Below, in pieces: positions 13,510 through 39,164 of a DNA stretch of 64,000 nucleotides. Position numbers and translations under genes: made by a program. Numbering within the stretch: the first letter of the stretch is position 1; every line of letters starts with the position of its first letter. This DNA comes from Thermoplasmata archaeon (GTDB taxonomy: Archaea > Thermoplasmatota > E2 > DHVEG-1): positions 1 through 64,000 of the forward strand of contig JAHWGK010000004.1 of assembly GCA_020054495.1 (NCBI GenBank). The letters are read 5' to 3'. A model generated the notes under the pieces. The model did no database searches, had not been told where the DNA came from, and saw nothing but the letters and a program-made list of their open reading frames with translations.

Positions 13510-14625
13510 ATGAAAAAGATTATTCCTTGGCTTAACGACAGTAATTATATAGCCCCTTTATCACCAGCTTGTAAGATGTGTGCACAGGGCTCAAAGATGG
13601 TATTACTAATAACTGGACTTTGTTCTTCAAATTGTTTCTATTGCCCATTAAGTTCTAAAAAATTAGGTAAAGATCGTATTTTTGCTGACGAATGGGAACT
13701 TGACAATGAGGAAGATACTGAGAAATTGATACTTGAGGCAGAGTACATCAGAGCCACCGGAGCAGGTATCACTGGCGGTGATCCTCTGATTGTTTGGAGA
13801 AGAACTAAAAAATACATCGCTCTTCTAAAAGATGCATTTGGCTCAAATTTTCATATTCACTTGTATACATCAGGTATTAAAAATGGCAAGTATATCGATG
13901 AACTTGTTTCAGCTGGTCTAAACGAAATTAGATTTCATCCACCACGTGAGCACTGGAATACTATGAAGAACAGTCCAATATTTAATTCGATTAAAAACGC
14001 CTTAGAAACAGATGTTGATGTTGCTCTTGAAATACCTGTGATTCCAGGTATGGACGCTGAAATATTTTCATTGATAAATTGGGCGAATAATATTGGGATC
14101 AAATGGGTAAATTTAAATGAACTTGAATTTTCTGAGACAAATGCTGAAAACTTAAAGAAAAGAGGTTATACAGTAAAAGATGATATTTCAGCTGCGGTTA
14201 AAAGTAGTCAGGATTTAGCATATACTGCTATTGATATGATATCAAAGGAGGATTTTACAATAGGCGTTCATTATTGTTCATCTTCTTTTAAAGATGGTAT
14301 TCAACTTAGAAATAGAATAATGCGCAGGGCAAAAAACGTTGTAAAAGAGTATGAAATTATCGGTGATGAAGGCACTCTGCTAAAAGGAGTGATTTACACA
14401 CAAAAAACATCTTTGAAAGAGCTTTATGGAAATTTAAAAGAAGAATTTAGAATAGAAGATAAATTTATCTTTTTAAATAATGAAAATAAAAGAATTGAAA
14501 TTGCACTTTGGATTCTAGAAAAAATTGCATTAGATCTTAAAAGACGAGGGCTTCAATGTTATATGATAGAAGAGTATCCAACTGCAGATAGATTAGAAGT
14601 TGAAAGAATACCTTTACCATTATGA
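13510..14625 (+). CDS. Radical SAM protein, COG2108-like, function unknown
   Basis: The 371-aa protein carries the radical SAM cluster motif CSSNCFYC (Cys at about 38, 42, 45). A second Cys pair precedes it (CKMC, about 21-24), followed by TGAGITGGDPL, which fits the GGE-like SAM-binding strand. It resembles the archaeal family described as related to pyruvate-formate-lyase activating enzyme, whose reaction is not established. The C-terminal third (about 270-371) has no recognised motif. The start lies 3 bases after radB, implying translational coupling. A link to DNA repair from this neighbourhood would be speculation. Confidence 0.85.
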   Translation: MKKIIPWLNDSNYIAPLSPACKMCAQGSKMVLLITGLCSSNCFYCPLSSKKLGKDRIFADEWELDNEEDTEKLILEAEYIRATGAGITGGDPLIVWRRTKKYIALLKDAFGSNFHIHLYTSGIKNGKYIDELVSAGLNEIRFHPPREHWNTMKNSPIFNSIKNALETDVDVALEIPVIPGMDAEIFSLINWANNIGIKWVNLNELEFSETNAENLKKRGYTVKDDISAAVKSSQDLAYTAIDMISKEDFTIGVHYCSSSFKDGIQLRNRIMRRAKNVVKEYEIIGDEGTLLKGVIYTQKTSLKELYGNLKEEFRIEDKFIFLNNENKRIEIALWILEKIALDLKRRGLQCYMIEEYPTADRLEVERIPLPL

Positions 14626-15342: not shown

Positions 15343-15525
15343 ATGGTTGAAAGAAGAACTTGTTCATTCTGCGGAAATGAAATTGAGCCAGGCACTGGTA
15401 AAATTTTTGCAAAAAAAGATGGTACAGTGTTTCATTTCTGCAAAAATAAGTGTCAGAAAAATATGCTACAGTTAAAACGTATTCCTCGAAGAGTCAGATG
15501 GAGTAAACATTACGCTAAAAAATGA
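15343..15525 (+). CDS. rpl24e: Large-subunit ribosomal protein L24e
   Basis: The 60-aa zinc-ribbon protein of the 50S subunit has metal ligands CSFCGNEIEPGTG and FCKNKC and a basic C-terminus typical of archaeal L24e. GAGGT is placed 8-9 bases before the ATG. It closes the ribosomal operon: a T-run at about 15538-15546 follows, and the next gene is a giant surface protein rather than ndk or infB. Confidence 0.96.
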   Translation: MVERRTCSFCGNEIEPGTGKIFAKKDGTVFHFCKNKCQKNMLQLKRIPRRVRWSKHYAKK

Positions 15526-15665: not shown

Positions 15666-15682
15666 TGGAAAGATATATAATT
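15666..15682 (+). promoter_or_regulatory. Putative promoter of the 2530-aa surface protein
   Basis: GGAAAGATATATAATTA contains a TATA-like core with a purine-rich BRE-like flank. It lies about 110 bases before the ATG at 15784, implying a leader of roughly 80 bases. A very similar GAAAGATATATAT precedes the 4951-aa gene, which supports it as the shared promoter of the duplicated genes. Confidence 0.5.
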
Positions 15683-15783: not shown

Positions 15784-18700
15784 ATGCAATATAGAGTTAA
15801 TGTTGTTAATAATGGAGTTGTAAAGAAGCTATTGAGTACTAGTATTATTGCTTTAATGGTATTTGCGTCATTTGCAATATTTTTTGTAGATACCGTAAAA
15901 GCAGCAGGCGGTTCTACAAATGATATAATTGTTTCTCCATCTAATCAGCATGTAACAATTGGGGCTGTATTCTACACTGAGATATTGGTAAATGTTAGTT
16001 GGGAGATAAATAATGTGACTATCACTAATGTCACGTATGAAAACCCAGGATATATAAACTACACAAATACATCTCAAGGAGAACTATTTATTGGAGGAAC
16101 ATGGACTACACCTGAAAGTCCTGATGTATTTCCAGGAGGTGGGATCTATAATAGTTCAGGATATGCATTGCCAATAATTTGGGTAAATACTACAGGGGTT
16201 AACCAAACCAATACAGCTGCAGCAAACATTACTTGGTATGCTAATAGTGTAGGAACTGCTTTTATTAATATCACAGGATCTACCTACAATAATGTTGGCC
16301 AAAATCATACAACAAATTCAACAAATGCAACTGTCATTGTACATCCAAAAGGGCCATCCTCATTTTCTGCTGTGGTTCATAATGATACTCAGATTAATCT
16401 GACTTTTAACCCTGATACTGGTGTTGATAATATTACTGTTGTTCGGAATTCTTATATGCCTTTAACTGTTGATGATGGAACTATAGTTTGTAATACAACA
16501 GCAACATCTTATGAAGATACAAACCTCAACTCGAATACAACTTATTATTACAAGGCTTGGAGTTGGAATAATACAGCAAGTTTGTTCTGTTTAGATAGTC
16601 AAGCGTCTCCAAATGGAACAACAACATGGGGTCTTTTGAATACAACGGTTAGAGGATTTGTTAATGACTCAGAAGGTAGTCCATTATCCAGTGTGAATAT
16701 TTCAGCAAATAATTATACAACGGGCATAATTGATACGAATGTAACAAATGCGACCGGTTATTATGAGCTTACACTTTTTAGTGGCGATTTCAATATTTCA
16801 TTTAATAAAGATGGATATTACCCAGATTTCTGTGAAGATTTTATTCCAGAAAATGCTACATACTGGTATAATGCTACATTAGGATCACCGGGTGGACCAG
16901 GAGGGCCAGGTGGTAGTGGACCACCAATAAATGATTATTTATCAGATGTTACTCCAAGATATATTACAAATGGCACACAGCAATTATTTAATTTTAGTTT
17001 GGTACAAGACTGGGGATGGAGAGAAGCTAATCTAAGGTTGAATAATTTAACAATTAGTATGTCTGATAATCTAGTATATGCTGGAAACAACGGAACAACT
17101 TTGGGAGATTCAGATGAATATATGGCAAATCATACTTCAAGTTATGTTAAATGGATGAAGAATAATAGCGACGGATTTTTATTTGAAGGTAATGAATATA
17201 CTGAGTATTTCTGGTTTGTTGTTACAACAAATGGCCCTCTAGGAACAGCTTATCTAAATATAAGTGCAGAAAGTAATGAAAGTGAATATTCAAATTTCAG
17301 TATATCAGTTTATATCACAACCAATTTCTCATTTACTGGTAGTATTTACGATATTGAAGGAAATCCTTTGGAGGGTGCAACTGGTAGTATGACTGTTCAA
17401 AGTTTTACAAATACAGGTCCAGTTACTCTTGGGACATTTAGCAACTATACAGATGCAACTGGTGCATTCAACATTACAGGTATTCCTACCACTCAAGAGC
17501 AACAACAAGGTGAACCAGGCCCTGGCGGTCCTGGAGGTTCAGATTTATTCTACAAACTTAGTGCAGCAGAATATCGCCCGGGTACTCCATATGCCATTAA
17601 TATATCTGCAAGTTTGCCTTCAGTACCTTATACTGAGTTATCATTCTTATTAGATAACCCTGAAATGTATCTCAAAAAGGCAATTTCATTTAGAATAAAT
17701 TGTATTGGACCAAATTATAACTGGAGTAATGGAAGTTTATCTATTGATAATTATACTGCGAAAACTTTCCAAGTAATGGCAAAAGATCTGAGATTAGGTT
17801 ATTCCATACAAGAAAATAATACTCAAACATATGAACAAATATTTTCCGTTCCAGCTAATAGAAATTACTCACTGAGTATATTTCCGGATCAATCATTCCC
17901 GGTAAGTATTAGACTATTAAATATTACTTCAACTTGTGATGCCAGTGGTAATTTAAGCCAGCCTGGAGTAACTATAGATTATATGGCATATAATGGAACC
18001 TATCTAATAAATGTGAGTGTAAACACAAGCTATCAAGCTAGATTTATAAATGGATCTTTCTCAGGTGTTCCTGAAATGTTAGATATGAGGGTTGTAGCGT
18101 ATATTATGGAAGATCAAGATATGGTTTTTGAAAATTGGGCGCTTCCATTTAATTTAGCAAATGAAACTGGAGGCGCTGATGATAGTTACAATGTTGGAAC
18201 AGGGGAATATAATATATCTTTACCTGCAACTGAGGCATCCTCCTATATCTTATTAAGAGCTTATGCGACAAATGCATCTGGAGTTTACTTCATGGATTCT
18301 TATATGTTAAGTGCGCAAACCAGTAACTTGAGTGTTTCTTCTCATGATTTTACAATGACACAGATGATTGAAGGATCAGATAGGTCAATATCTTCAAATA
18401 ATGTTACTGACCAATGGAATCAAACAACGATAGTGAACACTACATCAGTATTATTCAATCTTGTTAATAGTAATGGGAGTCTACTAAGTAATGAAAATCC
18501 ATTTGTGGATATTAAAAGAGAGCTAGATGGAACTGAATACATGCAAATGACAGATGGCTCAAGTGGTCAGTTTAATGTATCATTGGTTCAAGGTGAAAGT
18601 ATTAAAAAATTAACCATTTATTCACAACAATATGCTCCTGTATCTGTCCCAATAAGCTCAAGCGTACTTAGTGGCTCAACTGCAACTAGCACAATAAATT

Positions 18701-21700
18701 GTACAAATGGAGTATGTAATATTACAATGCGAGGATTTGGGGAATACGACCCATTTAACCAAAGTCAAGATTTTACAATGGACATGTTTAGATATAATGA
18801 CTCTTGCAACATTCCAAATCCCCCTTCCAACTATAGTCTTACTGGCGAAAGTATGAATGAATCAAGTTTTTCACCTTTCAATGCAATATTGAAAGGAGAT
18901 ATCAACATGATGATAACAAGTGGAAACCTTTCTGTTTATTATATCAACGTTGATCTTCTGGCATCTGGTCCTCCTGATGCAACATTTAATGAGAACTCTG
19001 AAACTTCCAGCGGCGGTTTAGAAGCCGCATGGCAGTTTGGAAGTCAAGGACCTGATATTTATAATTATGTAATAATTGGTATGCCTTATGATAGCAAACT
19101 TGATAACAAATCAATAAAGGTTAAAATTGAGAAGTTATATGATAATGAATTCAATGTAATTTGGAACTCAAGTGCAGGAAATACAACATCTGATATTGAA
19201 ACTGATTCTGACTTAGAGGCGTATATTGATTATATAAACTCTTCATATGACTCTTACATATCTGGAACAGAGGCTTATCTAAATGGCACTGGAGTTTTAT
19301 GTCGTGAAGATGATCCATATTTACAATATGGATTAGGGTACAAGGATATAGCCAATCATAAAATTTGGATTAAGATACCTCATTTCTCAGGCGTAGGACC
19401 TACAGTTATTGCTGTTCATAATTTTACATTTACTGGAGAATACCCGTACAACAACAGCTTAAATGTTGCTCTAACTCAATCAACAGTCAATGTCACCATC
19501 CAAGATGATGAAGGAGATACATTCAACTGGACAATATGGGTTCTTGGTGGTGATAGTAATAGCTCAACTAATGATATAAATGGATCAAAGGAATGTAATC
19601 TAACTACACCATTGTCCGAAGGAACAAATTACACTTGGTGGGTAAATGTTACAGATGGTAATAACACTGCTAATCTTACTTATTCATTTACCACGACGTA
19701 TGTTCCTTATCTATCAGGCGAATCCCCCGTAGACACTAGCTCTGGTCATTGTCCTGTTCCAGCACTGTATGTATTGTGTGTTGACAATGATACAAGTGAC
19801 ACTATGAATGCTACATGGTGGAGCAACTCATCAGAAGCTTGGGTACAATTCGGTTCTAATGAAACAAGCTTTGCAAATGGGACTAATATTACCCAGACCA
19901 ATGCTAACTTTAGTAATCCCGGAGAGACCTATTGGTGGAGTGTAAATGTTACAGATGGAAATGGAGCATGGAATAATCAAACCTATAGCTTTAATACAAA
20001 CTATGCACCAACTCAAAGTGGTGAGTCACCAACTGATGGTTTAACAAACATTAGTGCAACTCCCGCTCTCTATATAATCTGTAGTGATACTGATGGTGAT
20101 ACAATGACTGTAACTTGGAGAAGTGATTCTTCAGGCGATTGGGTTGATTTTGCTACGAATAATAATGTGTTTAGTGGAATGAATATAACACAAACAAATA
20201 GCAATTTCAGTTCACCCGGGGAAACTTATTATTGGAGTATTAATGTGACTGATGGCTGTAATTGGACTAATACAACCTATAGTTTTACAACAAATAGCCT
20301 GCCAACACAAAGTGGTGAATCGCCAGTTGATGGTGTCACAAATATCTGTTCAATACCATCACTATATGTTATTTGTAGTGATAACGATGGAAGCACCTTA
20401 AATGCTACATGGTGGAGCAACTCATCAGAAGTTTGGGTACAATTTGGTTCTAATGAAACAGATTTTGCTAGTGGAACAAACATCACCCAGACTAATAGTA
20501 ATTTCAGCTCAGCTGGAACTACTTATTATTGGAGTGTTAACCTAACAGATGGCGGGGACTGGACTAATACAACTTATAGTTTTACAACAAATTATGCACC
20601 AATGCAAAGTGGGGAATCACCGGTTGACGGAAGTACAGGCATCTGTCCAATACCAGAGCTATACGTTGTGTGTAGTGATAATGATGGAAGCACCTTAAAT
20701 GCAACTTGGTGGAGCAACTCATCAGAAGTTTGGGTACAATTTGGTTCTAATGAAACAGATTTTGCTAGTGGAACAAACATCACCCAGACTAATAGTAATT
20801 TCAGCTCAGCTGGAACTACTTATTATTGGAGTATTAATGTGACTGATGGCTGTAATTGGACTAATACAACCTATAGTTTTACAACAAATTATGCACCAAC
20901 GCTAAGTGGGGAATCTCCGACTGATGGGGCTGAAAATGCTAGTATATCTCCAGATCTTTATGTTATTTGTAGTGATTTAGATAGCGATACGATGACTGCG
21001 ACTTGGAGAAGTAATTCTTCAGGTTCATGGGTTGATTTTGCAACAAATAATAGTATCGGCGCAGGAACTAACATCACACAAACAAATAGTAATTTTACTA
21101 ATGTGAGTTGGACTTATTATTGGAGTGTTAACTTAACCGATGGGTGCAACTGGACTAATGTTACATATAGCTTTACTACAAATAGCCTGCCAACGCAAAG
21201 CGGAGAATCACCAGTTGACGGAAGTACAGACATATGTCCAATTCCAGAGCTATATGTTGTTTGTAGTGATAATGACGGAAGCACCTTAAACGCAACTTGG
21301 TGGAGTAATAGTACTAATTCTTGGGTACAATTTGGTTCTAATGAAACAGATTTTGCAAGTGGAACAAACATCACCCAGACTAATAGTAATTTCAGCTCAG
21401 CTGGAACTACTTATTATTGGAGTGTTAACCTAACAGATGGCGGGGACTGGACTAATACAACCTATAGTTTTACAACAAATTATGCACCAACGCTGAGCGG
21501 TGAAAGCCCAACTAATGAGTCTAGTAATTCTAATTTTTACCCATCGTGTCATGTAGTGGTATCTGATACAGATGGAGATACATTAACAGTTTACATATAT
21601 GAAAATACAACAGGTAGTTGGGTACTTCAACAAACTAACGCAAGTATATCCTCTGGAACAAATGTCAGCTGGGGCAACTTCACAAATGCTAGTAGTTATT

Positions 21701-23376
21701 CAATGACTTATAACTGGTCAGTAAATGTAACTGATGGATGCAGTTGGACGAATGAAACATATACTTTTACAACAAGAAGCGTGTATCTGCCTGATCCTCC
21801 AAGCAGTTTTTCTGCAAGTGCAAACGGACGGACACAAATAGATTTATTATGGGAAAAAGGGAACAAAGCTAATAAAACGTATATCGAATGGAACACAGCA
21901 TCTAGTTGGAGTCGTGGAGATGGAACTGAATTGTATAATGGCACTGGTACATCAACAAGTCATACAGATTTGAGTGCTAGTACCACTCGGTATTACCAGG
22001 CATGGTCATGGAATGATACTGGTAGTTGTTGGAGTATATCATATAGTAGTACTAGCGCTACAACAGAAGAAAGCAGCTCTTCCCCAGGGGTACCTAGCCC
22101 TATACCAACTGCTGATACTGGTGGGCCATATGAAGGATATGTAGGTCAAACAATTACATTTAATGGTTCTGGAAGTACAGCCTCAAGCACAACTGCTACC
22201 ATAACAGATTACAAATGGGACTTTGATAATGATGGAACTTATAATACCGATTACTCAACATCAGCTACTTCAACTCATGTGTATACTACTGCGGGGGAAT
22301 ATACTGTAAAACTTATGGTTAAAGATGATACAGGTGCTACTGATACAGATACAGCTCAGGTTACAATAAACGAAACAGAAACAACTGAAGATAACGAATC
22401 AGAAATAACAAATGCGAGTCACCTGCCAAAAAAAGTGATACGTGAAGATAATGTCACAATATATGCAACAGTAACTGATGATTACGGTGTATCTTCAGTC
22501 ACTTGCTACTGGAATGATGGGGCAGAACACTCTAAATTGATGACATCTAATGATGATAGCACTTATTCGGTATCAATTGGTCAATTCTCAGAAGGAATAA
22601 CCGTAACTTACTGGATAATAGCAATAGATACAGGATCGCAAACAACACAATCTGAAACAAAATCATTCAATGTTGTAATATCAGTTTCTGCAGGAAATGT
22701 TACAAGTGGTGTAAGACTAGAAATAACTTCAGAAGAATTGGAAGGAACAGCAAACATTGATAAAATAGAATTCACATCCATCTCTAACCTCACAGATGTA
22801 AGAATAACTATAGACGAATTTGAAGATAAACCAGAAGATGTAATAGAAGAACCCAAACTTGAAGATTTACCCGTGGTAATAACAGATACGGAGAAAGTAG
22901 AAGGAATCCATATCTATAGTTATTTAGAAATAAATCTTACTGCAGAAAATGAAACTGTGGAAGAGGGCGAAATATCTTCATTGAATATCAAATTTAAGGT
23001 TCTATTATCATGGCTTATTGACAATAACATAAGCAAAGAAACCGTATTACTAATGAGATATAACGATGAAAACGAAGAATGGGAGCAACTCCTAACAGAA
23101 TATCTAGAAGGAATGGATGATGATACTTATGCATACTATAATGCAACATTAACGGGAACCTCAACATTTGCAATAGTAGGTAGTGAAATCTCTGAACTGA
23201 CCGGAGAAACCCCAAAACCTGAGGGATTACTTTGGTGGCCAATTATTTTGTTCATTGTTGTAGCAATAATATTGTTAATAGCATTCTTCTTCAAAACAGG
23301 ATATTTATATATCGAAAAGGAAAATACGGGACAAGAAGATAAACCAAAGAAAAAACAAACTAAAAAAAAGAAATAA
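15784..23376 (+). CDS. Giant surface protein, 2530 aa, with tandem repeats and PGF-pre-PGF-like C-terminus
   Basis: The ATG at 15784 is chosen over 15772 because GGTGGAT lies 6 bases upstream; the 4951-aa gene has the same GGTGGATGAGATGC context. An N-terminal hydrophobic signal (LLSTSIIALMVFASFAIFFV) is followed by FN3-like and carboxypeptidase-regulatory-like domains and two Gly/Pro linkers (GSPGGPGGPGGSG and GEPGPGGPGG). Then come seven to eight units of about 99 aa (SGESPVDG...NITQTNSNFSS...TYSFTTN), an FN3-like unit, a PKD domain (DTGGPYEGYVGQ... YKWDFDNDG), an Ig-like domain and a PGF-pre-PGF-like domain ending STFAIVG. A C-terminal membrane helix (WPIILFIVVAIILLIAFFF) and a Lys-rich tail close the protein. 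It is rich in N-x-S/T sequons. Likely role: anchored envelope or adhesion protein. No enzyme motif was seen. Confidence 0.9.
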   Translation: MQYRVNVVNNGVVKKLLSTSIIALMVFASFAIFFVDTVKAAGGSTNDIIVSPSNQHVTIGAVFYTEILVNVSWEINNVTITNVTYENPGYINYTNTSQGELFIGGTWTTPESPDVFPGGGIYNSSGYALPIIWVNTTGVNQTNTAAANITWYANSVGTAFINITGSTYNNVGQNHTTNSTNATVIVHPKGPSSFSAVVHNDTQINLTFNPDTGVDNITVVRNSYMPLTVDDGTIVCNTTATSYEDTNLNSNTTYYYKAWSWNNTASLFCLDSQASPNGTTTWGLLNTTVRGFVNDSEGSPLSSVNISANNYTTGIIDTNVTNATGYYELTLFSGDFNISFNKDGYYPDFCEDFIPENATYWYNATLGSPGGPGGPGGSGPPINDYLSDVTPRYITNGTQQLFNFSLVQDWGWREANLRLNNLTISMSDNLVYAGNNGTTLGDSDEYMANHTSSYVKWMKNNSDGFLFEGNEYTEYFWFVVTTNGPLGTAYLNISAESNESEYSNFSISVYITTNFSFTGSIYDIEGNPLEGATGSMTVQSFTNTGPVTLGTFSNYTDATGAFNITGIPTTQEQQQGEPGPGGPGGSDLFYKLSAAEYRPGTPYAINISASLPSVPYTELSFLLDNPEMYLKKAISFRINCIGPNYNWSNGSLSIDNYTAKTFQVMAKDLRLGYSIQENNTQTYEQIFSVPANRNYSLSIFPDQSFPVSIRLLNITSTCDASGNLSQPGVTIDYMAYNGTYLINVSVNTSYQARFINGSFSGVPEMLDMRVVAYIMEDQDMVFENWALPFNLANETGGADDSYNVGTGEYNISLPATEASSYILLRAYATNASGVYFMDSYMLSAQTSNLSVSSHDFTMTQMIEGSDRSISSNNVTDQWNQTTIVNTTSVLFNLVNSNGSLLSNENPFVDIKRELDGTEYMQMTDGSSGQFNVSLVQGESIKKLTIYSQQYAPVSVPISSSVLSGSTATSTINCTNGVCNITMRGFGEYDPFNQSQDFTMDMFRYNDSCNIPNPPSNYSLTGESMNESSFSPFNAILKGDINMMITSGNLSVYYINVDLLASGPPDATFNENSETSSGGLEAAWQFGSQGPDIYNYVIIGMPYDSKLDNKSIKVKIEKLYDNEFNVIWNSSAGNTTSDIETDSDLEAYIDYINSSYDSYISGTEAYLNGTGVLCREDDPYLQYGLGYKDIANHKIWIKIPHFSGVGPTVIAVHNFTFTGEYPYNNSLNVALTQSTVNVTIQDDEGDTFNWTIWVLGGDSNSSTNDINGSKECNLTTPLSEGTNYTWWVNVTDGNNTANLTYSFTTTYVPYLSGESPVDTSSGHCPVPALYVLCVDNDTSDTMNATWWSNSSEAWVQFGSNETSFANGTNITQTNANFSNPGETYWWSVNVTDGNGAWNNQTYSFNTNYAPTQSGESPTDGLTNISATPALYIICSDTDGDTMTVTWRSDSSGDWVDFATNNNVFSGMNITQTNSNFSSPGETYYWSINVTDGCNWTNTTYSFTTNSLPTQSGESPVDGVTNICSIPSLYVICSDNDGSTLNATWWSNSSEVWVQFGSNETDFASGTNITQTNSNFSSAGTTYYWSVNLTDGGDWTNTTYSFTTNYAPMQSGESPVDGSTGICPIPELYVVCSDNDGSTLNATWWSNSSEVWVQFGSNETDFASGTNITQTNSNFSSAGTTYYWSINVTDGCNWTNTTYSFTTNYAPTLSGESPTDGAENASISPDLYVICSDLDSDTMTATWRSNSSGSWVDFATNNSIGAGTNITQTNSNFTNVSWTYYWSVNLTDGCNWTNVTYSFTTNSLPTQSGESPVDGSTDICPIPELYVVCSDNDGSTLNATWWSNSTNSWVQFGSNETDFASGTNITQTNSNFSSAGTTYYWSVNLTDGGDWTNTTYSFTTNYAPTLSGESPTNESSNSNFYPSCHVVVSDTDGDTLTVYIYENTTGSWVLQQTNASISSGTNVSWGNFTNASSYSMTYNWSVNVTDGCSWTNETYTFTTRSVYLPDPPSSFSASANGRTQIDLLWEKGNKANKTYIEWNTASSWSRGDGTELYNGTGTSTSHTDLSASTTRYYQAWSWNDTGSCWSISYSSTSATTEESSSSPGVPSPIPTADTGGPYEGYVGQTITFNGSGSTASSTTATITDYKWDFDNDGTYNTDYSTSATSTHVYTTAGEYTVKLMVKDDTGATDTDTAQVTINETETTEDNESEITNASHLPKKVIREDNVTIYATVTDDYGVSSVTCYWNDGAEHSKLMTSNDDSTYSVSIGQFSEGITVTYWIIAIDTGSQTTQSETKSFNVVISVSAGNVTSGVRLEITSEELEGTANIDKIEFTSISNLTDVRITIDEFEDKPEDVIEEPKLEDLPVVITDTEKVEGIHIYSYLEINLTAENETVEEGEISSLNIKFKVLLSWLIDNNISKETVLLMRYNDENEEWEQLLTEYLEGMDDDTYAYYNATLTGTSTFAIVGSEISELTGETPKPEGLLWWPIILFIVVAIILLIAFFFKTGYLYIEKENTGQEDKPKKKQTKKKK
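19690..21780 (+). repeat. Tandem array of about 99-aa SGESP repeats within the 2530-aa gene
   Basis: Seven clear copies begin at SGESPVD/SGESPTD, with a more diverged one before them (TGEYPYN). The period is about 297 bases. Copies beginning near 20304, 20602 and 21192 share DNA blocks of 150-200 bases that are almost identical (for example AATGGTTCTAATGAAACAGA-like stretches and CATCACCCAGACTAATAGTA). Other copies (near 20010 and 20899) form a second subtype with TWRS(N/D)SSG. The two subtypes partly alternate, suggesting duplication of multi-unit blocks. Confidence 0.92.
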
Positions 23377-23387
23377 AGATAAACCCA

Positions 23388-23402
23388 TTTTCTCTCTTTT
23401 TA
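23388..23402 (+). terminator. T-rich terminator after the 2530-aa gene
   Basis: TTTTCTCTCTTTTTA follows the stop by about 12 bases, in the style of archaeal oligo-T termination. The equivalent stretch follows the 4951-aa gene within a homologous 3' flank. Confidence 0.5.
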
Positions 23403-23468
23403 ATATAATATTCTAGTTGCACTAAGTTGATACTTACAAATTATAACATTTACTGGAAGTAAGCTGCT

Positions 23469-23530
23469 ATGTGGGATATAGGGATAAAAACTGTTGAGAT
23501 ATAAAAACTAGGAGATATGATTTTTTCTAA
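23469..23530 (+). pseudogene. Decayed 5' fragment of an adenosine-specific kinase gene (duplication scar)
   Basis: ATGTGGGATATAGGGATAAAAACTG... reads M-W-D-I-G-I-K-T-V-E-I-stop-K-L-G-D-M-I-F. The intact kinase at 38661 reads M-G-E-I-D-Y-K-T-V-E-I-E-K-P-E-D-I-N-F. The similarity continues upstream through the ribosome-binding region (ACTGGAAGTAAGCTGCT versus ATTGGAGGTAAGGTGTT), an AATATAATATT element and the T-rich terminator, back to the 3' ends of the two giant genes. This is best explained by tandem duplication of a surface-protein gene plus the start of the kinase gene. An in-frame TAA, and loss of similarity after about 60 bases, show it is not functional. Confidence 0.85.
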
Positions 23531-23545
23531 AAATAACGAAAACAT

Positions 23546-23577
23546 TACCTAGTAACTCTAAAGATTATACCTAGTAA
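23546..23577 (+). promoter_or_regulatory. Paired TACCTAGTAA direct repeats upstream of the 4951-aa gene
   Basis: TACCTAGTAA occurs at 23546-23555 and again at 23568-23577, 22 bases apart start to start (about two helical turns), and 45-75 bases upstream of the TATA-like element near 23621. Each copy is itself nearly palindromic around CTAG. The arrangement suits binding of a dimeric regulator; the regulator is unknown. Confidence 0.45.
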
Positions 23578-23617
23578 TATTCTCGTTGGAGCGGATATCT
23601 TAATTTTTGTGCAGAGT

Positions 23618-23636
23618 ATATAGAAAGATATATATC
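23618..23636 (+). promoter_or_regulatory. Putative TATA region of the 4951-aa gene
   Basis: TATATAGAAAGATATATAT matches the GAAAGATATATA core found upstream of the paralogous 2530-aa gene. Transcription from here would leave a leader of roughly 60 bases that includes the perfect palindrome at 23655-23668. Confidence 0.45.
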
Positions 23637-23654
23637 TATTTATCTTATTCGTGG

Positions 23655-23668
23655 CGTAATATATTACG
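23655..23668. promoter_or_regulatory. Perfect 14-bp palindrome in the leader of the 4951-aa gene
   Basis: CGTAATATATTACG is a perfect inverted repeat, followed 7 bases later by a second palindrome TTACGTAA (23675-23682) sharing the TTACG core. Located between the predicted transcript start and the ATG, the pair could be an operator. Confidence 0.4.
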
Positions 23669-23710
23669 TGATTGTTACGTAATTTGATAATTTAGGGAGT
23701 GGTGGATGAG

Positions 23711-26700
23711 ATGCGATCTATAAGAAAAATTTTAATTAAAGCTAGAATAGTTAAGAAATTTTTAATCAGCTATATAGTAGTTATTTTGCTATTGGGATCT
23801 TTTGCTGGAATGTTGCAGATATTAGAAGCTTCGGAAAGTGAGCCTAATGATTTAATCAACCTTAATCCAGCAGATGGCTCAACTAATGTGAGTGTTGATG
23901 TGAATCTTGTTTGGTCCTATAATGACTTTGGAGATCTAGTGACATATGATGTCTTCTTTGGCGATATGTCGCCTCCAACCAAAGTTGTGTGGAACCAATC
24001 TGATAATTCACATGATTCTGGAACGCTTGCATATAATACAACCTATTATTGGCAGATTGTTGCTTGGAATGACACTGGCAATTACAGTTCAAGTTCGATT
24101 TGGGAGTTTACAACAGAAGGCGAAATAATCGATGAACAAGAAGAAGAACTTGAAGAGGAGATATCTGAAGAACCTGTTGAAGAGCCTGAGGAAATACCAG
24201 AAGGTACTCAAGAAGGGATGGATGATTCTACGCCAACTAATCTGTCATCTTTTCCACCTGCTCCGCTTCCAGCTATTAGCCCCCCTACCTTTAATGGTCC
24301 AATTATAAATACTACAATAAAAGGCTCTGTGAATACTACTGGAGATATTGACCTTGAGGATGTTAATGTTTCTGCTAGTAATCAGTCGTATGGTTTAGTA
24401 AATTACACTTTTACAAGTGTAACTGGAGATTATGAATTTAACATTTCTGGAGGAGATTATAATATCTCATTTACAAAAACCGGATATAATACTAGTTATT
24501 TTAATAGCTCTTTTACTGAGAATAGTTCTTATTGGTTGAATATGACTTTAAATTCAAGCGAACCTCCACCTCCAAGTGGGAATTCCAGCATCTCTGGATA
24601 TGTTTTAACTCCAAGTAATAATAGTATCGCTGGTGCAGATGTAGAAATTAATAAGGATGGTGGCGGATATTCAGATTCAACACAGACAGATCAAAATGGA
24701 TATTATAACTTCTCTGGTTTAGAAGTGGGTACATATGACTTAGTTTCGTATAAACCGGGTCTCTTTAGTAATGTTTATCACGATGATGTTGTAATGGGTG
24801 AGAATAAGTCTATAGAGAATTTAAATTTTACAGCTTCAGTTGCACCAATTAGGGGAATATCATTTAGTGGATATGTTTATCAAGATATGACTCCAGATGT
24901 ACCTGTCATTGGAGCAAATGTAACTGTGGAAACAAATGGGGATGAAAGTGATATTCGTGGCTATGGTTTATCAAATTCATTAGGCTATTTTGAATTTACA
25001 TTCATACCAAATGAAGATGCAGTATATAACCAAAGTAACGATATGCTTAGAATTAGAATAACTAAAAATGGCTATGTTCCATTGCAAGATCATCAGGGTG
25101 GAACTGGTATAACTGAAGACATATACAGTGATATGTGGGAGCAAGAAGAATGGTACCATATCGAGAAAATATATAATATTACTGCCTACGCTTACGGTTT
25201 TATATATCGTCTTAGTGATTCCACGCCAATTGATAATGCAACAATTATGGTGGAAGATGAATCTACTTATTTTATGAATCAGACTCAGACACTTGGAAAT
25301 GGTTCGTTTATGATAGGTTTAAATGTTAGTAGCTCTGCTGATTTTGAATTCGGGATATGGAAAGAAGGGTACTTTAGAAACGAAACCGACCTAACAACCA
25401 TTAACGAGAGTGATTATTATAATTTAAGTACAATCTACCTTGAGGTTAAACCTGAAAATAATGCATATATTGAAGGATTTATAAATTGTAGTGATCAACC
25501 TCTCCAATATATAGAATTGTCGTTGTATGATCCTACCCATCCTTTTGAAGTTGAAAAAGAAGATATGCCACGAACAAACTCCATCGGATACTTCAATATT
25601 TCAACATATAATGGTACTTTCTATATTATAACAATGGCTCAGATGATAGGACAACGGAAAGACGGACCGCCTTTGGCTATCGGTGGATATGATAATGAAG
25701 TAGTTCAGATTACTGTTGCAGCAAATGAAACCAAAATGCAAAACATAACACTTAATGCTTCCACAGCAGATGATTTCCAGATGAATATAAGTTTCTCGCA
25801 ATGGAACATTACGTATGTCAATATGAGTAGAACCATACGAGGTAATGCAAAGATTTTACTGTTAATGGCAGATCTTGATATTGAGGGTAATATCTCTTCA
25901 GAGGAAGCATCATCTTTAGAAAGTACAATAAACAACTCTTTATCTGGAGGTGGAGGGATGTTTAGTGAGGAAGGTATATTCCTTGATATGCCAAAGGATA
26001 GTAGTTCCGGATTTTTCAAATTAGATGGTGTCAGTTTTATAACTCAAAGTGCTAATATTGAGTTTTCAGGTCTATTAGGCAGTTACTCTTTCTTAGGCCA
26101 GCCAAATCCAATTACTGTTTATGTTAACAATACAATAATGACTGCTGCAGGTCAAATTGATAATTCATCAACGAGTCATAGTATGGAATTATACGGGTTC
26201 TATGCTAATCCCGCTTTTAATACCACCTATGATATACACTTCCCAACCGGATACAATGTATCTAGTGTACGAGAGGAAATGGTTAACATTACGGGAGTGG
26301 GTACACCAAATGTTAGGGTAGTGCCTGTTCAGGATCCAAACTGGAATGACACTCAGTATTATGAGACCGTGGCAATGCTTATCGGCACTCCAGATGTTTC
26401 TGCCTTCTTTGATGGTTCATATAGTTATAATAACGCGATAGATGCGGATAGTGATGGGTTGTATGATTACTTGATGAGAAAGATTAAGTTTAATACCAAC
26501 ACATCTGGGTCATTTAAGGTCTATGCATCGCTTAGAAGTTCGTCTGGGACTACGATTGATACATGGACTGATACAAAAAGCTATGGAGCTGGGGAGAACA
26601 TCGTCCAGTTCTCATTTTTAGGAAGTGCTATCTATAGAAAAGCTATAGATGGACCATACAATGTTGTTGTGGACCTATATTATGTGCAAAACAGTACTGA

Positions 26701-29700
26701 AACATGGCTGGACTATATGAGTCAGACAACACCTGTTTATAATTATACTGCTTTTGACCCACCAGCAATATTTTTCACAGGAACTACCCATGATTATGGT
26801 TATGATTCTGATAATGATGGCTTATATGACTTTTTATATATATGCACTCAGGTTGATGTTGGGGATACAGGTGACTATACCTTTGAAGGAGATATTGATA
26901 TAGTTAGTTTTTCCGGTGGCGATACATGGATTACACGTTCTGAAAAAACAACTACCTTTTTCAGTACTGGTTTACAATGGTATAACCTTAGTTTTGATGG
27001 AACAGAAATTTATAGTAAAGGCCAGAATGCATCGATATGGGCACGAGTGCGGGTAAGACATAATAATGAATGGAACTCACTTGATGAAATTGAACATATG
27101 ACCGAGAAATACTTTTATAATCAGTTTGCTCTGCCGCCTCCTGAGAACTCTTCTGTAAATGGTACCGTGACCGATGCTTTTGGTAATCCAATAGAAGCTG
27201 AGATACGTCTTGAAGATAAATTGAGATTTTCAGAAAATAATACTCAAACAAATGCAAACGGGTATTATCAACTAAGTGCTTCAGCTGGTGTATATCGTCT
27301 GGAAGTATGGTGCACAAATAGCAGTCAATCTTTGAAAAGTCATGATGAAATGGTGGTATTAGAGACAAATGAGTCTCTAACTAGGAATATCAGATTGTTG
27401 CCTCGTGACTGGGAATGTTCAGATATTTGGTGGGAAATGGAAGATTTCCAATATGCACAAGGAGCAAATATTTATCTTAATTTATCTACAAATGTGCAAG
27501 GGTCATCACCTATGCCATATTCCAACGCTACACTAGAGATTTATAAGGAATACAGGCATGAAGATGAATATTGGGGCGATGAATATGTAAATAGCACGAC
27601 AAATGTCACAGACTCAAATGGAAATTTAATGTATGTTATCAATACATCTGGATTTTCAACTGGATGGTATAATTTCTGGATGGATGTCACCAATTCCTCT
27701 CTTAGCCCAAGTGTTGCTACTGGAGATATATGGGGTGTTCAGATTAGCTCACTAAGTCTTGACTTTGATCTTGACAAAAACAAGTATAAAAAAGATAGCA
27801 CAGGTACATTTACATTTAATTTAACCTATATCAGTAACGGAACTTGTGTTGAAAACGCAGAGTATAAATGGAAAATTATGTACTGGGATTGGACAGAACA
27901 TATACTAGCTAGTGAAACATTTACAAATGAAAGCGGTTTTGGCAGTAGAACATTTACAGTTCCTTCTACTGTTCAGGATGGTCAATGGTATGAAATGCAA
28001 TTGATTGCTACAGCACAGTCTGGAAGTCAAGTGGTTTCGTGGTCAAACTTTGGTGCAACTAGTGGTAGTGTTATTGATAGCGTTAATGATTCAGCGGTCG
28101 GTACTCCTGGAAATTATGACTCTTTAGTAATCAATGTATCGGTTGATATGGCAGAATCTGGTGATTATCGAGTGGAAGGTTGTCTGAAAGGTCAAAATAA
28201 TGAGTTTATAGCCTGGAATGAAACTCAACAATATCTAAATGCAGGAAGTCAAACTGTCCAATTATTTTTTGATGGTGAAGCAATACAAAGTAGTGGTGTA
28301 AATCCGTACAGGGCATGGGTTGGTTTGTTCCAATATGGACAATGGGATCCGTTAGATGAGTTAGATCTTACACTATCTGAGTCCTATAGCTATGGTGATT
28401 TTGCTTCGCCCCCAATTTGGTTCAATAGAACTGCTGGAATAACTGATTTTAAAAATGGTACAGTTGGTGACTATGAGGCACTTCATGTAAACTTTACTGT
28501 AATTGGATCTGTAGCGGGTAGCTATAGTATTCATGGAAACCTATTTAAAAAGGACTGGCAAGGTGGTTGGTACGACTGGATACCTGTTGCATGGAACTGC
28601 ACAGATGTTGAAATTGTTTCGGGTGTCAATAATGATACAGATGTTAATATTTCTGTAAGGTTTGAGGGATCAGAGATATATAACAGTAAACAAAATGCCC
28701 CATATTATGTAAATCTTAATCTTCACCAAGGTAATTGTGGAAATAGTGGAGATTGGATATCTGGTTGGGAACCAGATACTGATATTTATGCCAATTATTC
28801 TGAGTTTGCTAAGCCTATAGCGTTCATAGAAAACATAACTGATTACGGCCCGGTCAATGGCGATCTTATTATTGGTGTTCAGATTAATATCACTACAGGA
28901 AATAATGCAATATATCAGATAAATAGTAGGCTTCATAGCAGCGAAATGGACAACCGAATGTTCATAACAGAGACTTGGGACACATCATACTTAGATAATG
29001 GAACTACTGTTGTAAACTTGACATTCTCTGGAGACCACATATATAGCAAAGGATATAATGGTCCTTATAAACTTGATGTTGACTTAAAAAGAGTTGACCC
29101 ATGTTGCCAATGGCTTGGATGGAATGAATATGATACTGAGGCCTATAACTACTCTGATTTTTCAACACCAAATGCAATGTTCATTGGAACATATTTAGAT
29201 CAAGGGGTTGACAGCGATGGTGATGGATATTATGATTATATCCAGGTTACAGTTCCGGTGAATTTCACTCAAAGCGGTCATTATGAAATATGTGGAGAGA
29301 TGTATCAAGAAGAAAATTGGAACTGGCAGTGGATAACTTGGACATATATTGATTTACCAAATCAGGGAATAGGAGAAGATGACATTGTACTTACATTCGA
29401 TGGAAATGAAATAGCAAATAGTGGTCTCGAGGGGTACTATGGAGTTAACTTATGGCTACGAAATATGGACCAAGGAGTAGATATTGGCAATTTAGATTTT
29501 ACTACTGCTAATTATTATTATCTAAATGAGTTTGACCAACCATCTGTAAGATTCACAGACTCGTCGCCATTAAGCGACTCAAATAGTAGTGATTGCAAAT
29601 ATATCAACGTATCAGTAGCAATTAACGCATCAGAAGTTGGTACGTACTATATTCATGGTGATCTACACAAAGTTATTCAGCAGTCTGGTTGGCAAGAGTG

Positions 29701-32700
29701 GATATGGATAACCGGTGCAGATGCTACTGTTGTTATAACCACAATTGGAGATACATCACCTTTTAATGTTTCATTTGACACAGCAATGATTCAAAGTTCT
29801 GGATATGATGGTCCTTATAACATACACTTTGATTTAATGGATTCTAACTGGAATAATATAGACTTTATTGATAACTATCTAACTTCAGCATACCTTTTAT
29901 CAGATTTTGCTGATGCACCTGCAAACTTCACCGGTAGTTACGATGATTATCTTTATCCAACTACAAACCCTGAATACGTCAGACTAAATGTCACCATTGA
30001 TGTTAATGAGTCAGGTACCTATAGTGTCAATGGAGATATTCATAAGAGCTCAGGTTGGAACTGGAACTTCATAGCTGGGAGTGGCACTGATCAATATCTC
30101 AGCTCAGGTACACAAAACATTACACTTCAATTTGATGCTGTTGAGATACTCAGCAATATTGAAAGTTTAGGCTTGAGTGAATTCGATAGCGGTTCAACAT
30201 TTGACATAGATGTTTGGTTGAAACGCTCTGGAGAATGGACTGAATTAGATCATCTTGGTACTGTTGTATCTAAAAACACCTACAGTATATCCAACTTTAC
30301 CTCATCACTAAGTGCTAGTATAGTAAGTGTGACTGATAATGGGTACAATGTTAGTGCCAATAATGAAAGCTCAACACCAAATGATTATCTGAATATTACA
30401 GTAACAATTAACTTCACACAGGTTGGAAACTATGAATTATGGTGCGACCTTGGCAAGGATGATGGCTATAAATGGAACATGTTGGGTTGGGAGAACAGTT
30501 ATGAAACAATAACAAGTAGTCAATTATCTGGTGGCTATTATTTGAAGAATATAACATTACAGTTCAGTGGAGAACGTATCAACTCTGGAGGATGGAATGG
30601 TCCATACAGTTATCATATGGAGTTAAATGATCTAGATAATTCAAAACGAGTGGATATGGAAGACAGTCAAACGTCAGCATATAATTATTCTGACTTTGTA
30701 GGCTCAACAGTTGAATTTGTTGATGGAACTGCTTCTGCGGTAGGCGTAGATTCAAGTGATGCAGGTAGCGAGTACGATTATCTGTTAGTGAGTGTGAATG
30801 TTTCCGCACAATCTGCATATAATAGTGTAGAACTGCGAGGAGATCTTCACAAAGACTCACCATATGGTGGTTGGCAGTGGATATCTTGGGGAAGTAACTG
30901 GACTAGTTTAAGTTCGGGGGATAATACATTGACATTACAGTTTGCTGGAGAGATTATCAGAAATAGTGGTATTGATGGGCCGTACCAGGTCAGACTTGAG
31001 TTATGGGATACAAGCACATGGGACTTACTAGATACAATAGAGCGCATAGATACCATTACTTATACAAATGAGAACTTCCAGACTCCTTCAGCATCGTTTA
31101 TAGCTGCTAATATCTCAGATTGGGGAAATGATACAGATAGTGATGGGAGCTACGATTATTTAGAGATTAACGCCTCGATTTCTTGCACTACTCCGGGTAC
31201 ATATGAAGTATCCGGAGAATTATTCTCTGATGATTTTGGTTGGATATGGTTTGGATGGGCTAACGAGTTTGTTAGTTTATCTGCTGGTGAATCTGTAGTG
31301 AAATTACAGTTTGAGGGCACGCAGATTAGAAACAAAGATATAAATGGACGATACAAGGCTAGACTTGCATTAAGAGATAGCAATGGGCAAGATATCGATT
31401 CAGTTGATCCATATACAACAGAGTATTATAATTCTGCTGATTTCCAGAGTTCTGGAGCAGAGTTTGTAAGTGGTAGTGTTGATGATAGAATTATCAGTAG
31501 CGGTGACTATCTTGATCTTAATGTAACTGTCAGTTGTTCAAGTAATGCAACTTATTGGATAGGCGCTGATTTACACAAAGAATCAGGCTGGGACTGGGAC
31601 TTTATAGCATTTGAAAGCAAAGAACAGATATTAACAACAGGTCAAACGAACATAACAATATTGTTTAACGGCGAAACGATCCGCAATAGTGGAATAGATG
31701 GTCCATATCAAATAAGACTTGAACTGCGTGATACAGCTACATGGTCTGAACAGGATCTTATAGAACGGCATACTACAAATACATATTATACTACAGACTT
31801 CTCGCAACCTTCTGTATCGTTTGTGGATATTAATATCTCAGATTGGGGTAATGATACAGATAGCGATGATGATTATAATTATCTTGAATTTAATGTTACT
31901 TTTAACTGTAGTGAAGCTGGTGTCTATTGGTTGCATGGAGATATTCAGAAGAAAACAGATTATTATTGGCAGTGGATAAGTTGGAAAGGAAAAGAAGTCA
32001 GCCTTACAGGCAATGGAGATCAAATAGTCAAGTTACAGTTTGATGGCGAATTAATCAATAGTAGCGGCATTAATGGCCCTTACTCAGCTAGATTAGAAAT
32101 TATCAATACCTCAAGCTGGACGACATTAGATATTGTTGAAGAATATACAACTACTTCTTATCAATATAATGACTTTGATGGATCATCAATTCAATTTGTT
32201 GAAGCTAATATTACAGACCGGGGTAATGATACAGATAGTGATGGTGATTATAATTATCTTGATCTCAATTTAACCATTGACTGTAGTGAAGCTGGCACAT
32301 ACTGGTTACATGCTGATATCCATAAAGTAACTGGATGGAACTGGCAACCAATAGCTTGGGACGGACAAGAAATTACGCTTGATGCATCTGGAGAACAAGA
32401 TGTCAAAATACAGTTTGATGGTTCACAGATTCGAAATAAAGGTATCGATGGACCATATCAACTAAGATTTGAATTAAACTCAGTTGGAGGTGAATTTAGA
32501 CAATATGATACTGTTGAGTCATATACTACAATTAACTCTTATCTTGCCACTGATTTTGAGAGCGCTGGAGTAGAACTAGTTGAAATGACAGATGAAGGTG
32601 CAGATATTATTGCCAGTGGTAATTTACAGGTTAATGTAACTATTAACTCATCAACAACTGGTACTTATGAGATATTTGGTGATCTCTTTAAAGAATCTGG

Positions 32701-35700
32701 TTGGGACTGGCAGTGGATTACATGGAAATCAGTTCAAGTAGAAGTTTCGGGTTCTGGTGAACAGAAATTTGCATTAACATTTGATGGCGGAGATATTTAC
32801 GACAAAGGAATCGATGGACCATATAACGTCAGATTAGAACTTCGAGATGTTGGCAGCGGTTCTATGATTGATAGTATTGATAAATATACAACTAATGGTT
32901 ATACATCTAATCAATTTTCAACCCCTGCAGTCAGTATCAACGGCACTGATGATTTTAAGAATAATGGCTATTTACAACTCAATGTCTCTACATATTCTGA
33001 GTCCAGCGATACATATCAAGTTGTAAGTTGGTTACATGGGGCTAACTGGGAGTATATCACATGGAATGAGAACACAACAACTGTAAATGGATTAGAAGAT
33101 GTTGTATTGCTGTTTGATGGATCAATAATTAATAGCACAGGTATTGACCCAGCGAAGTTATATATTGAAGTAAGAAAAATCAGCAATTGGGATTTAGTGG
33201 GCTATGGAGAATATGCTCTGAGTAATACGTACAGTGCTAGTGATTTTGGTGCTGATGTCGAGATAGATACCTCTTCAGTTGCATCCAGTGTATGGAATTC
33301 CGATGCTGATGATTATAACAATTCTTTGAATGTTACTGTTAATGTCACATTTGCGGCTGGGAATTATACGGCTTTTGCCGGACTTGTTGATCAAAATGGA
33401 ACATGGATAGCAGGAGCATTTTCTCCTACCGATTCATATTCAGGCTTGCAACAGGTTAATTTCTTGTTTGATGGGCTTACAATCTATATGTTAGATCTAG
33501 ATGGTCCATACACTGTTAGATTCATTTCAATAGCAAAAGAAGATGGTTTTGAAGTGGCACGTGAAAAAAATGTACATACAACAGCTAGTTATAATGCTGA
33601 TATCTTCGAACATCCTGATGGAATAATACCTTATGCTAATTTAACTGGTGCTTATAGCTCATATGTAGAAGATACGGATACTGATTCATATTACGACTGG
33701 TTAGTTGTGAATGTATCAGTTGATATTGGTGCAAATACTAATTATAAGGTTTATGGGGACATTATGTCAAGTGATGGATCAAAATGGATAGCCGGGGCGA
33801 GTAACAACACTGGTTCATTGAGTACAGGAACACAAGTGGTTCAACTTGAATTTAGTGGTGTTGACATATATGAAGATTCAACTAATGGGCCATATCTTCT
33901 TGGATTTGTAAGAGTCGAGGGAAATGCTAGTGGAACATGGGTCAAGCTTGATGAAGCTAGCAATGCCCATACTACTTCTTCTTACAGTTATACAGATTTT
34001 GAGAACACTACAACAGCTCCATTAGTTCTTTCTGACGTTATCTCAGTTAGTGTGTCCAATAACCCATTCAGTCCAAATAGCGATGGAGCATTCGATACAA
34101 CATTAGCAACAGTAGAAGCTGGCGACAGCCAAACATTATATCTAAATGTTTATAACAGTAGCAGTGTACTGAAACGAACAGGCATAGCATTATCTGAAAT
34201 TTCTTCTGGAACATATACTGCAACTTGGAATGGAAATGATGACAGTGAAACAGTTGTATCAGATGGAACGTATACAATTAAGGTATCAGATGAAGCCACA
34301 GGTATACAAGCGAATGAATCAACTGAGGAAGCAGCCAATATCGATGTTGATACGTATCCACCGACTAGTTGCAGTGTGGAAATTAATAGTGGTGATACTT
34401 ATACAAACTCTACTTCGGTGAATCTAACAACTATTACAGCAACTGACGATTCCTCCATAAAGATGAGATTTCAAAATAGCGGTGAAAACTGGACAGAATG
34501 GCAAGACTTCCAAGGGACAAAAGCATGGACGCTCACTTCAACAGATGGATCAAAAACAGTAAATTATGAAGCAAAAGATGTGGTTAACAATACAATAATT
34601 TCATCAGTGAGTGATAGTATAACCCTTGATACAACAAATCCAACAGTTAACATGTCAATTGTTGGCGCAGGAGATACACCCAGTACACATAGTAACAACG
34701 TTAGTGTGACATTATCAATAGCTGGATCAGATGCAACAAGTGGCGTAGAGTATATGAAGATATCAAATGACATAGGATTTACTGGTAGTAGCTGGATTAA
34801 TTATACTACTTCAAAGGCATGGACACTTAATTCAGGAGATGGCACTAAGACAGTTTACATAAAAGTAAAAGACAGAGCAGGTAAAGAGTCTGTTGTGAGT
34901 TCAGATAATATAACCCTTGATACAGTTAGCCCGTTGAGTCTTACTATTTCCATAGACTCTGGTCAAACATACACAAATTCAACAAATGTAACGCTATCAC
35001 TATCGGCAACAAATGCATTGAAAATGCAGGTAAGCAATTATGCAAACTTCAGTGGTGCAGTCTGGGAATCATATTCAACTTCAAAGAACTTCTCAATAAC
35101 AGATGGAAATGGAACAAGAAAAGTCTATTTCAGAGCAAAAGATACTGCTGGGAACATAGCAACAGGTGTAAATGATAGTATAATACTTGATAAAGCAACC
35201 CCTGAAATCTCAAGTGTGTCAAGTAGTGGTGTTTCCCAGAGCTCAGCTACAATAACATGGACAACAGATGAAGCATCTACAAGTTATGTGGAGTATGGAA
35301 CAACAACAGGTTATGGATCAAATACAACATTAAATTCAACTAAGGCTATGAGTCACTCCCAGATTATTACCAGTCTTAATTCTGGAACAACATATCACTA
35401 CCGTGTAAGATCATTGGATGGAGCTGGTAATGAGGCGATTTCTGCAGATAATACCTTCTCGACAACATCTGGGGGAGATACAACATCGCCAGATGCAATA
35501 ACTGGACTTACAGTTTCAGATAAACAAAATGATGAGAGCACATTAACTCTTTCTTGGAGTCAGTCAGATGCTCCTGACTTTGCAGGATATAATATTTATA
35601 GAAAAGCAAATGCGTCATTTGTAAACATTTCTGCTTCTGGCGTACAACAAATAAAAACAATAACATCCAGAACAACTACAACGTATAATGACAACACATC

Positions 35701-38566: not shown

Positions 38567-38578
38567 AAATAAATCCAT

Positions 38579-38593
38579 TCTTTCTCTTTTTTT
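38579..38593 (+). terminator. T-rich terminator after the 4951-aa gene
   Basis: TCTTTCTCTTTTTTT lies about 12 bases after the stop and is homologous to the element at 23388. The adenosine-specific kinase gene begins some 70 bases downstream with its own GGAGG site. Confidence 0.5.
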
Positions 38594-38660
38594 ATATAAT
38601 ATTTATATAACACTTAACTGATGCTTACAAATTGGTATTAGTTATTGGAGGTAAGGTGTT

Positions 38661-39164
38661 ATGGGGGAAATAGATTATAAAACTGTAGAGATAGAAAAAC
38701 CTGAGGATATAAATTTTATACTTGGTCAAACTCATTTTATTAAATCTGTTGAAGATCTATATGAAGCAATGATAAATTCAGTTCCCAGTGTTAAATTTGG
38801 TATTGCATTCTGTGAGGCAAGTGGAGCATGTAAAATTAGAAGTGAAGGAAACGATCCTGAACTTAAAAAACTCGCTGAGAAAAACGCAGGGAACATCGGA
38901 GCAGGGCACTCGTTTATTGTGTTTATGAAGGATTGTTTTCCATTAAATGTGCTAAACACGATTAAAAATATCCCTGAGGTTTGTTCCATCTATTGTGCTA
39001 CTGCTAATCCAACGAAAGTAGTCATAGCTGAATCAAAGATCGGTACTGAGACTGGTCGTGGAATACTTGGGGTTATTGATGGATTCAGCCCAAAGGGGGT
39101 GGAAAACAAAGAAGATATCTCTTGGAGGAAAAAGTTACTTAGGGACATAGGATACAAACTTTAA
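38661..39164 (+). CDS. Adenosine-specific kinase (DUF355/COG1839 family)
   Basis: The 167-aa protein matches the small archaeal and bacterial family annotated as adenosine-specific kinase. Its pattern includes KFGIAFCEASGACKIRSEGN, IGAGHSFIVFMKDCFPLNVL, CATANPTKVVIAES and a C-terminal GRGILGVIDG. It would phosphorylate adenosine to AMP in purine salvage. GGAGG stands 9 bases before the ATG. The gene ends by overlapping the convergent pcm gene by 4 bases. A broken duplicate of its first codons lies at 23469, between the two giant genes. Confidence 0.9.
   Translation: MGEIDYKTVEIEKPEDINFILGQTHFIKSVEDLYEAMINSVPSVKFGIAFCEASGACKIRSEGNDPELKKLAEKNAGNIGAGHSFIVFMKDCFPLNVLNTIKNIPEVCSIYCATANPTKVVIAESKIGTETGRGILGVIDGFSPKGVENKEDISWRKKLLRDIGYKL

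Follow-up and report, generated by a model that had tools for sequence, protein, structure and literature searches.

The DNA between two giant surface-protein genes of this member of the Thermoplasmatota contains the beginning of an adenosine-specific kinase gene, and the intact kinase stands on the far side of the second giant. How did the start of a housekeeping gene come to lie there, and what does it say about the history of the giants? The first-pass annotation, made from the letters alone, proposed that a surface gene and the kinase start had been duplicated in tandem and that the first kinase copy had then decayed. Here we follow this proposal through the window (the whole stretch of 64,000 nucleotides that was analysed) and through related genomes, which are largely metagenome assemblies and include one other genome of the genus, G001. 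The features of the locus are given in Table 1; the names L24e and S28e are our own, putative reading of sequence and gene order. Close to its left end, the window has another very long open frame (1732-8655, minus strand; 2307 aa).

Table 1. Features of the giant-gene locus in the window.
Feature	Position	Strand	Basis
Ribosomal protein L24e-like gene, left border of the giants' slot	15343..15525	+	sequence and gene order
Giant 1, whole gene	15784-23376	+	ORF to stop
Giant 1 body, residues 1-2094	15784..22065	+	orthologous to the slot giant of G001 and the G007 gene
Chimera junction interval, Ser/Thr/Pro-rich linker in giant 1	22066..22107	+	G007/G001 likeness ends, giant-2 likeness starts
Copied giant-1 tail: PKD domain, tail domain, membrane anchor, stop	22108..23376	+	55% to giant 2 tail over 422 residues
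Dead kinase-leader copy: T-rich tract, broken TATA region (23411-23422), broken ribosome-binding site (about 23455-23460)	23377..23468	+	61/92 identical
Kinase stub, first ~20 codons	23469..23524	+	42/57 identical to kinase codons 1-19
DNA between stub and promoter-like box of giant 2	23525..23622	.	no significant match
Promoter-like box GAAAGATATATA of giant 2	23623..23634	+	same box at 15668-15679 before giant 1
Giant 2 body, ORF open from 23699	23711..37297	+	blastp, collinear with A-B gene pairs of G004 and G022
Giant 2 tail, probable donor type for the giant-1 tail	37298..38566	+	homology to giant 1 tail
Intact kinase leader: TATA box (38602-38613), ribosome-binding site (38647-38652)	38567..38660	+	conserved across relatives
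Intact adenosine-specific kinase	38661..39164	+	PF04008

Translated from the ATG at 23469, the DNA after giant 1 reads M W D I G I K T V E I and then stops at 23502-23504, in frame at codon 12. The intact kinase begins MGEIDYKTVEIEKPEDINF; KTVEI is kept in the stub. The kinase start of about 20 codons ahead of giant 2 is real, as first annotated. The regions after the two giants also align as claimed: within the window, 23379-23524 matches 38569-38717 at 74% identity over 149 columns (E = 2e-19). The local score of the post-stop block is 108, far above 1000 dinucleotide-preserving shuffles (mean 22.9, maximum 37). The region is AT-rich and a TATA box is a general archaeal signal, features that would favour a chance likeness of AT-rich intergenic DNA or a generic promoter or terminator of surface genes. 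This explanation is refuted by the shuffles and by a genome-wide search, which returned only two places with high similarity (6.7e-38; the next at 0.008), and the similarity continues through coding DNA on both sides. We consider its probability negligible.

The shared non-coding block is the kinase's own leader, consisting of a T-rich tract, an archaeal-type promoter with TATA box and a ribosome-binding site. In an alignment of 17 relatives, this leader is conserved before the kinase both with and without an upstream giant. A hairpin terminator was looked for in the copy and none was found, so that the terminator of the first annotation gives way to the T-rich tract and the kinase promoter. 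The signals of the copy are broken: its TATA region reads TTCTAGTTGCAC, compared with the TATA box TTTATATAACAC of the true leader, and its ribosome-binding site is altered to GGAAGT. Among 47 leader columns conserved in at least four of five near relatives, 14 are altered in the copy and five in the true kinase leader. The copy differs from the kinase at 3, 5 and 7 sites on codon positions 1, 2 and 3, and the kinase of G001 at 1, 1 and 8, a comparison of only 19 codons. Small as they are, these counts point to the left copy as a dead one. It would fit the description of a gene relic: its homology to a functional kinase is significant by the shuffle test, and to judge from the sequence it is truncated, its frame closed and its TATA box and ribosome-binding site altered.

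The kinase similarity of the stub breaks off sharply at 23524. Compared with the rest of the kinase, 23525-23698 has no residual likeness (score 17; shuffles 18.7 +/- 2.3), and 23525-23622 has no significant match in this genome or in four relatives. Since the likeness ends abruptly and nothing is recognisable past codon ~20, it is probable that the copy was incomplete from the start and drifted afterwards. We rejected a complete kinase copy that later decayed for the lack of homology beyond 23524; the first-pass annotation was right that the copy is dead but overstated its decay. The TATA box, ribosome-binding site and frame of the stub were probably lost by drift, and the true kinase at the right end is intact. 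The latter matches PF04008 with E = 4e-74, the domain starting at residue 9, and is the only copy found in the 2.7-Mb genome. With so few positions, the stub region could not be placed in a tree with good support (56/12).

Where does the duplicated unit begin? The first annotation placed the start of the homology after the stop of giant 1, but it lies inside the gene. Likeness to giant 2 begins sharply at giant-1 residue ~2098 (22108), just before the PKD domain, and the homologous block extends for ~1.42 kb through the giant-1 stop to kinase codon ~20. The two tails are 55% identical in protein over all 422 residues. Upstream of the tail, giant 1 has no match to giant 2 except one ~95-residue domain; the parts common to the two giants are the last ~430 codons, this N-terminal domain and a similar promoter and start context. 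Homology along both copies, as in a whole-gene tandem duplication, was not found, because the bodies differ. The proposal that surface gene and kinase start were duplicated together therefore holds for the 3' end of the surface gene and is not borne out for the gene as a whole.

The body of giant 1 has its relatives elsewhere. It is 51.5% identical to the giant of G001 over residues 1-1489 and 53% over 1805-2083. It also matches a 1521-aa gene in G007, a genome of another genus, where that gene lies at a different place (61% over 376-1208, 55% over 2001-2094). The nearest relative of giant 1 switches sharply, from G001 and G007 up to residue ~2094 to giant 2 from ~2098. The tails of the G001 and G007 genes resemble one another (39%, 438 columns, E = 3e-78) and are of another type than that of giant 1. 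In the tail tree, giant 1 and giant 2 are sisters (94/94), and the pair groups with the tails of the B genes of G004 and G022 (99/98); the G001 tail, which had a very long branch in the first tree, was left out of the final one. Among the matches listed for this genome, the tail beyond the PKD domain occurs only in the two giants. Since orthologs of the giant 1 body carry a different tail and the tail of giant 1 matches giant 2, giant 1 is best read as a chimera, in which an old body received a copy of the tail of giant 2 or of the ancestor of giant 2. Which tail is ancestral is judged from three genomes. Genes of the giant 1 type may also have been transferred horizontally (63% identity to G007, 58% to G001). 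Within the body, 19800-21783 holds about six tandem repeats of ~99 codons, spaced 294-297 nt and roughly 61-82% identical to a reference copy. G001 aligns with only part of this array, which therefore looks expanded here.

Giant 2 is collinear in its body with A-B gene pairs of G004 and G022 by blastp. In both genomes the counterpart is a pair of neighbouring genes, A (~2500 aa in G004) and B (~1200 aa) (L169 2854-14030; L064); either giant 2 seems to have arisen by fusion, or A and B by a split.

The similarity at the 5' ends raises the question whether a whole unit of promoter, giant and kinase start was duplicated, the body of giant 1 being replaced later by that of another giant through recombination. 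Both ends are indeed common to the giants, with box and start context on the 5' side and tail and kinase start on the 3' side. Moreover, gene A of G004 and G022 combines a giant-1-like N-terminus with a giant-2-like body, as expected from one ancestral slot gene. The box GAAAGATATATA occurs three times in the window where 0.04 are expected. In two cases it lies at -116 and -88 of giants 1 and 2, and it also precedes the giants of G001 and G004. The start motif GGTGGATGAGATG has only two copies in this genome, both at giants. As it also begins unrelated genes in relatives, we downgraded it to a ribosome-binding context and dropped it as proof of a 5' duplication. Such a general start context weakens the case for a whole unit, and the wider intergenic DNA upstream of the two giants shows no significant likeness beyond the 12-base box and this context. 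An additional replacement of the body would be needed, yet in G001 the giant 1 body with its old tail is already in the slot. We consider duplication of the whole unit rather unlikely. A 3' copy alone leaves the common box and start context of the giants unexplained; both also occur elsewhere.

The surroundings of the kinase in relatives indicate what the locus looked like before. In 11 genomes of the family, L24e directly precedes the kinase, its end 63-378 nt from the kinase start. Based on this gene order, the adjacency of L24e and kinase is likely ancestral, and everything between them in the window, including the giants, was likely inserted. Several other relatives have other secreted-type genes between L24e and the kinase. 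In other genera (L200, L201, L052, L061, L062) the space holds different genes, and the signal-peptide region of a secreted-type slot protein there matches the N-terminus of giant 2 at 33-35%. A conserved small protein of ~83 residues, probably a membrane protein, precedes the kinase in G004, G020, G021 and G022 (L064, L065, L169 rc 14166-14417, L178 1890-2138). G004 has a second copy of it after gene B (contig C33), a hint of further tail-end duplication at such loci.

In G001, one contig ends within a giant after L24e and another starts within a giant before the kinase. The two ends overlap by exactly 25 bases found nowhere else in that genome. Joined, the frame is open over 1848 aa, and its alignment to giant 1 stays in register across the joint (query residues 4-697, then 693-833). 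Given this unique overlap, the open frame and the continuous register, the L24e-kinase space of G001 very probably holds one giant only and lacks a stub. A stub of 20 codons is too short for protein searches, so its absence was checked by reading the locus directly, in G001 only, and no stub is present at the joined locus. Comparison with a single-giant relative thus very probably supports the polarity that the first annotation ascribed to the stub.

The arrangement in G001 also bears on a third possibility, namely that giant 2 arrived from outside on a circle or donor fragment carrying the tail and the first kinase codons, and entered by a single crossover in a common tail. The predicted topology, a direct repeat with the truncated kinase at the left, is identical to that observed, and giant genes are patchy across the family. 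This route requires that giant 1 already had the common tail, unlike its orthologs in G001 and G007, and the genes examined next to the block included no recognisable integrase or transposase. We regard it as improbable, well behind duplication of the whole unit.

The explanation that we favour, and consider probable, is that a ~1.42-kb block, made up of the 3' end of a giant-2-type gene, the kinase leader and ~20 kinase codons, was copied leftward onto giant 1 and replaced its tail, the stub being the overshoot. The ancestral giant 1 would have had its present body with a tail of the G001/G007 type. Its 3' end would then have been overwritten by that of giant 2 or its ancestor, comprising the PKD domain, tail and membrane anchor, so that the original tail was presumably lost. 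The copy tract would have run past the stop and through the kinase leader into ~20 kinase codons. The stub was probably never a whole kinase, and drift would later have destroyed its TATA box, ribosome-binding site and frame. We infer the direction, from giant 2 to giant 1, and the route, which may have been one-ended gene conversion or a comparable segmental copy of the 3' end. Among the genomes compared, none was found that combines both giants with the old tail of giant 1, as an intermediate would. The stub leader is identical to the kinase leader at 61 of 92 positions (66%), and the kinase leader to that of G001 at 56 of 84 (67%). The tail identity of the giants is likewise similar to that of the giant 1 body to G001. 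Because these identities approximate the orthologous values, the copying event would date from about the time at which the two members of the genus separated.

Truncated gene relics are familiar from the inner junctions of tandem and segmental duplications, where a partial downstream gene lies between the units and the intact one at the far end. The locus resembles them in its partial kinase between the giants and intact kinase at the far end, but the duplicated part of the upstream gene is here confined to its 3' end and the gene bodies differ. It is also similar to non-allelic gene conversion and chimeric surface-protein paralogs, in that giant 1 takes the 3' sequence of its neighbour with a sharp boundary at a domain edge. 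Unlike in those paralogs, the tract continues beyond the stop, and its right-hand end can be seen because it falls in a housekeeping gene of no relation; the likeness in route is presumed. As to the PF04008 family, the stub matches codons 1-20 of the adjacent member but is without almost the whole domain of ~155 residues. Literature searches found no published case matching this arrangement of giant tail and kinase stub.

These results suggest that the anchor end of a giant archaeal surface protein was obtained as a copy of the 3' end of the gene next door and not through whole-gene duplication. The mechanism is ordinary and the scar is informative: the stub gives a direction and a rough age for the rebuilding of giant 1. 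A more speculative reading, which we consider rather unlikely, is that the L24e-kinase space is a family-wide landing and remodelling site for large secreted and surface genes, where neighbouring giants repeatedly swap anchor tails and overshooting tracts are preserved as datable kinase stubs. More plainly, surface genes turn over in the L24e-kinase space within this family of Thermoplasmatota.
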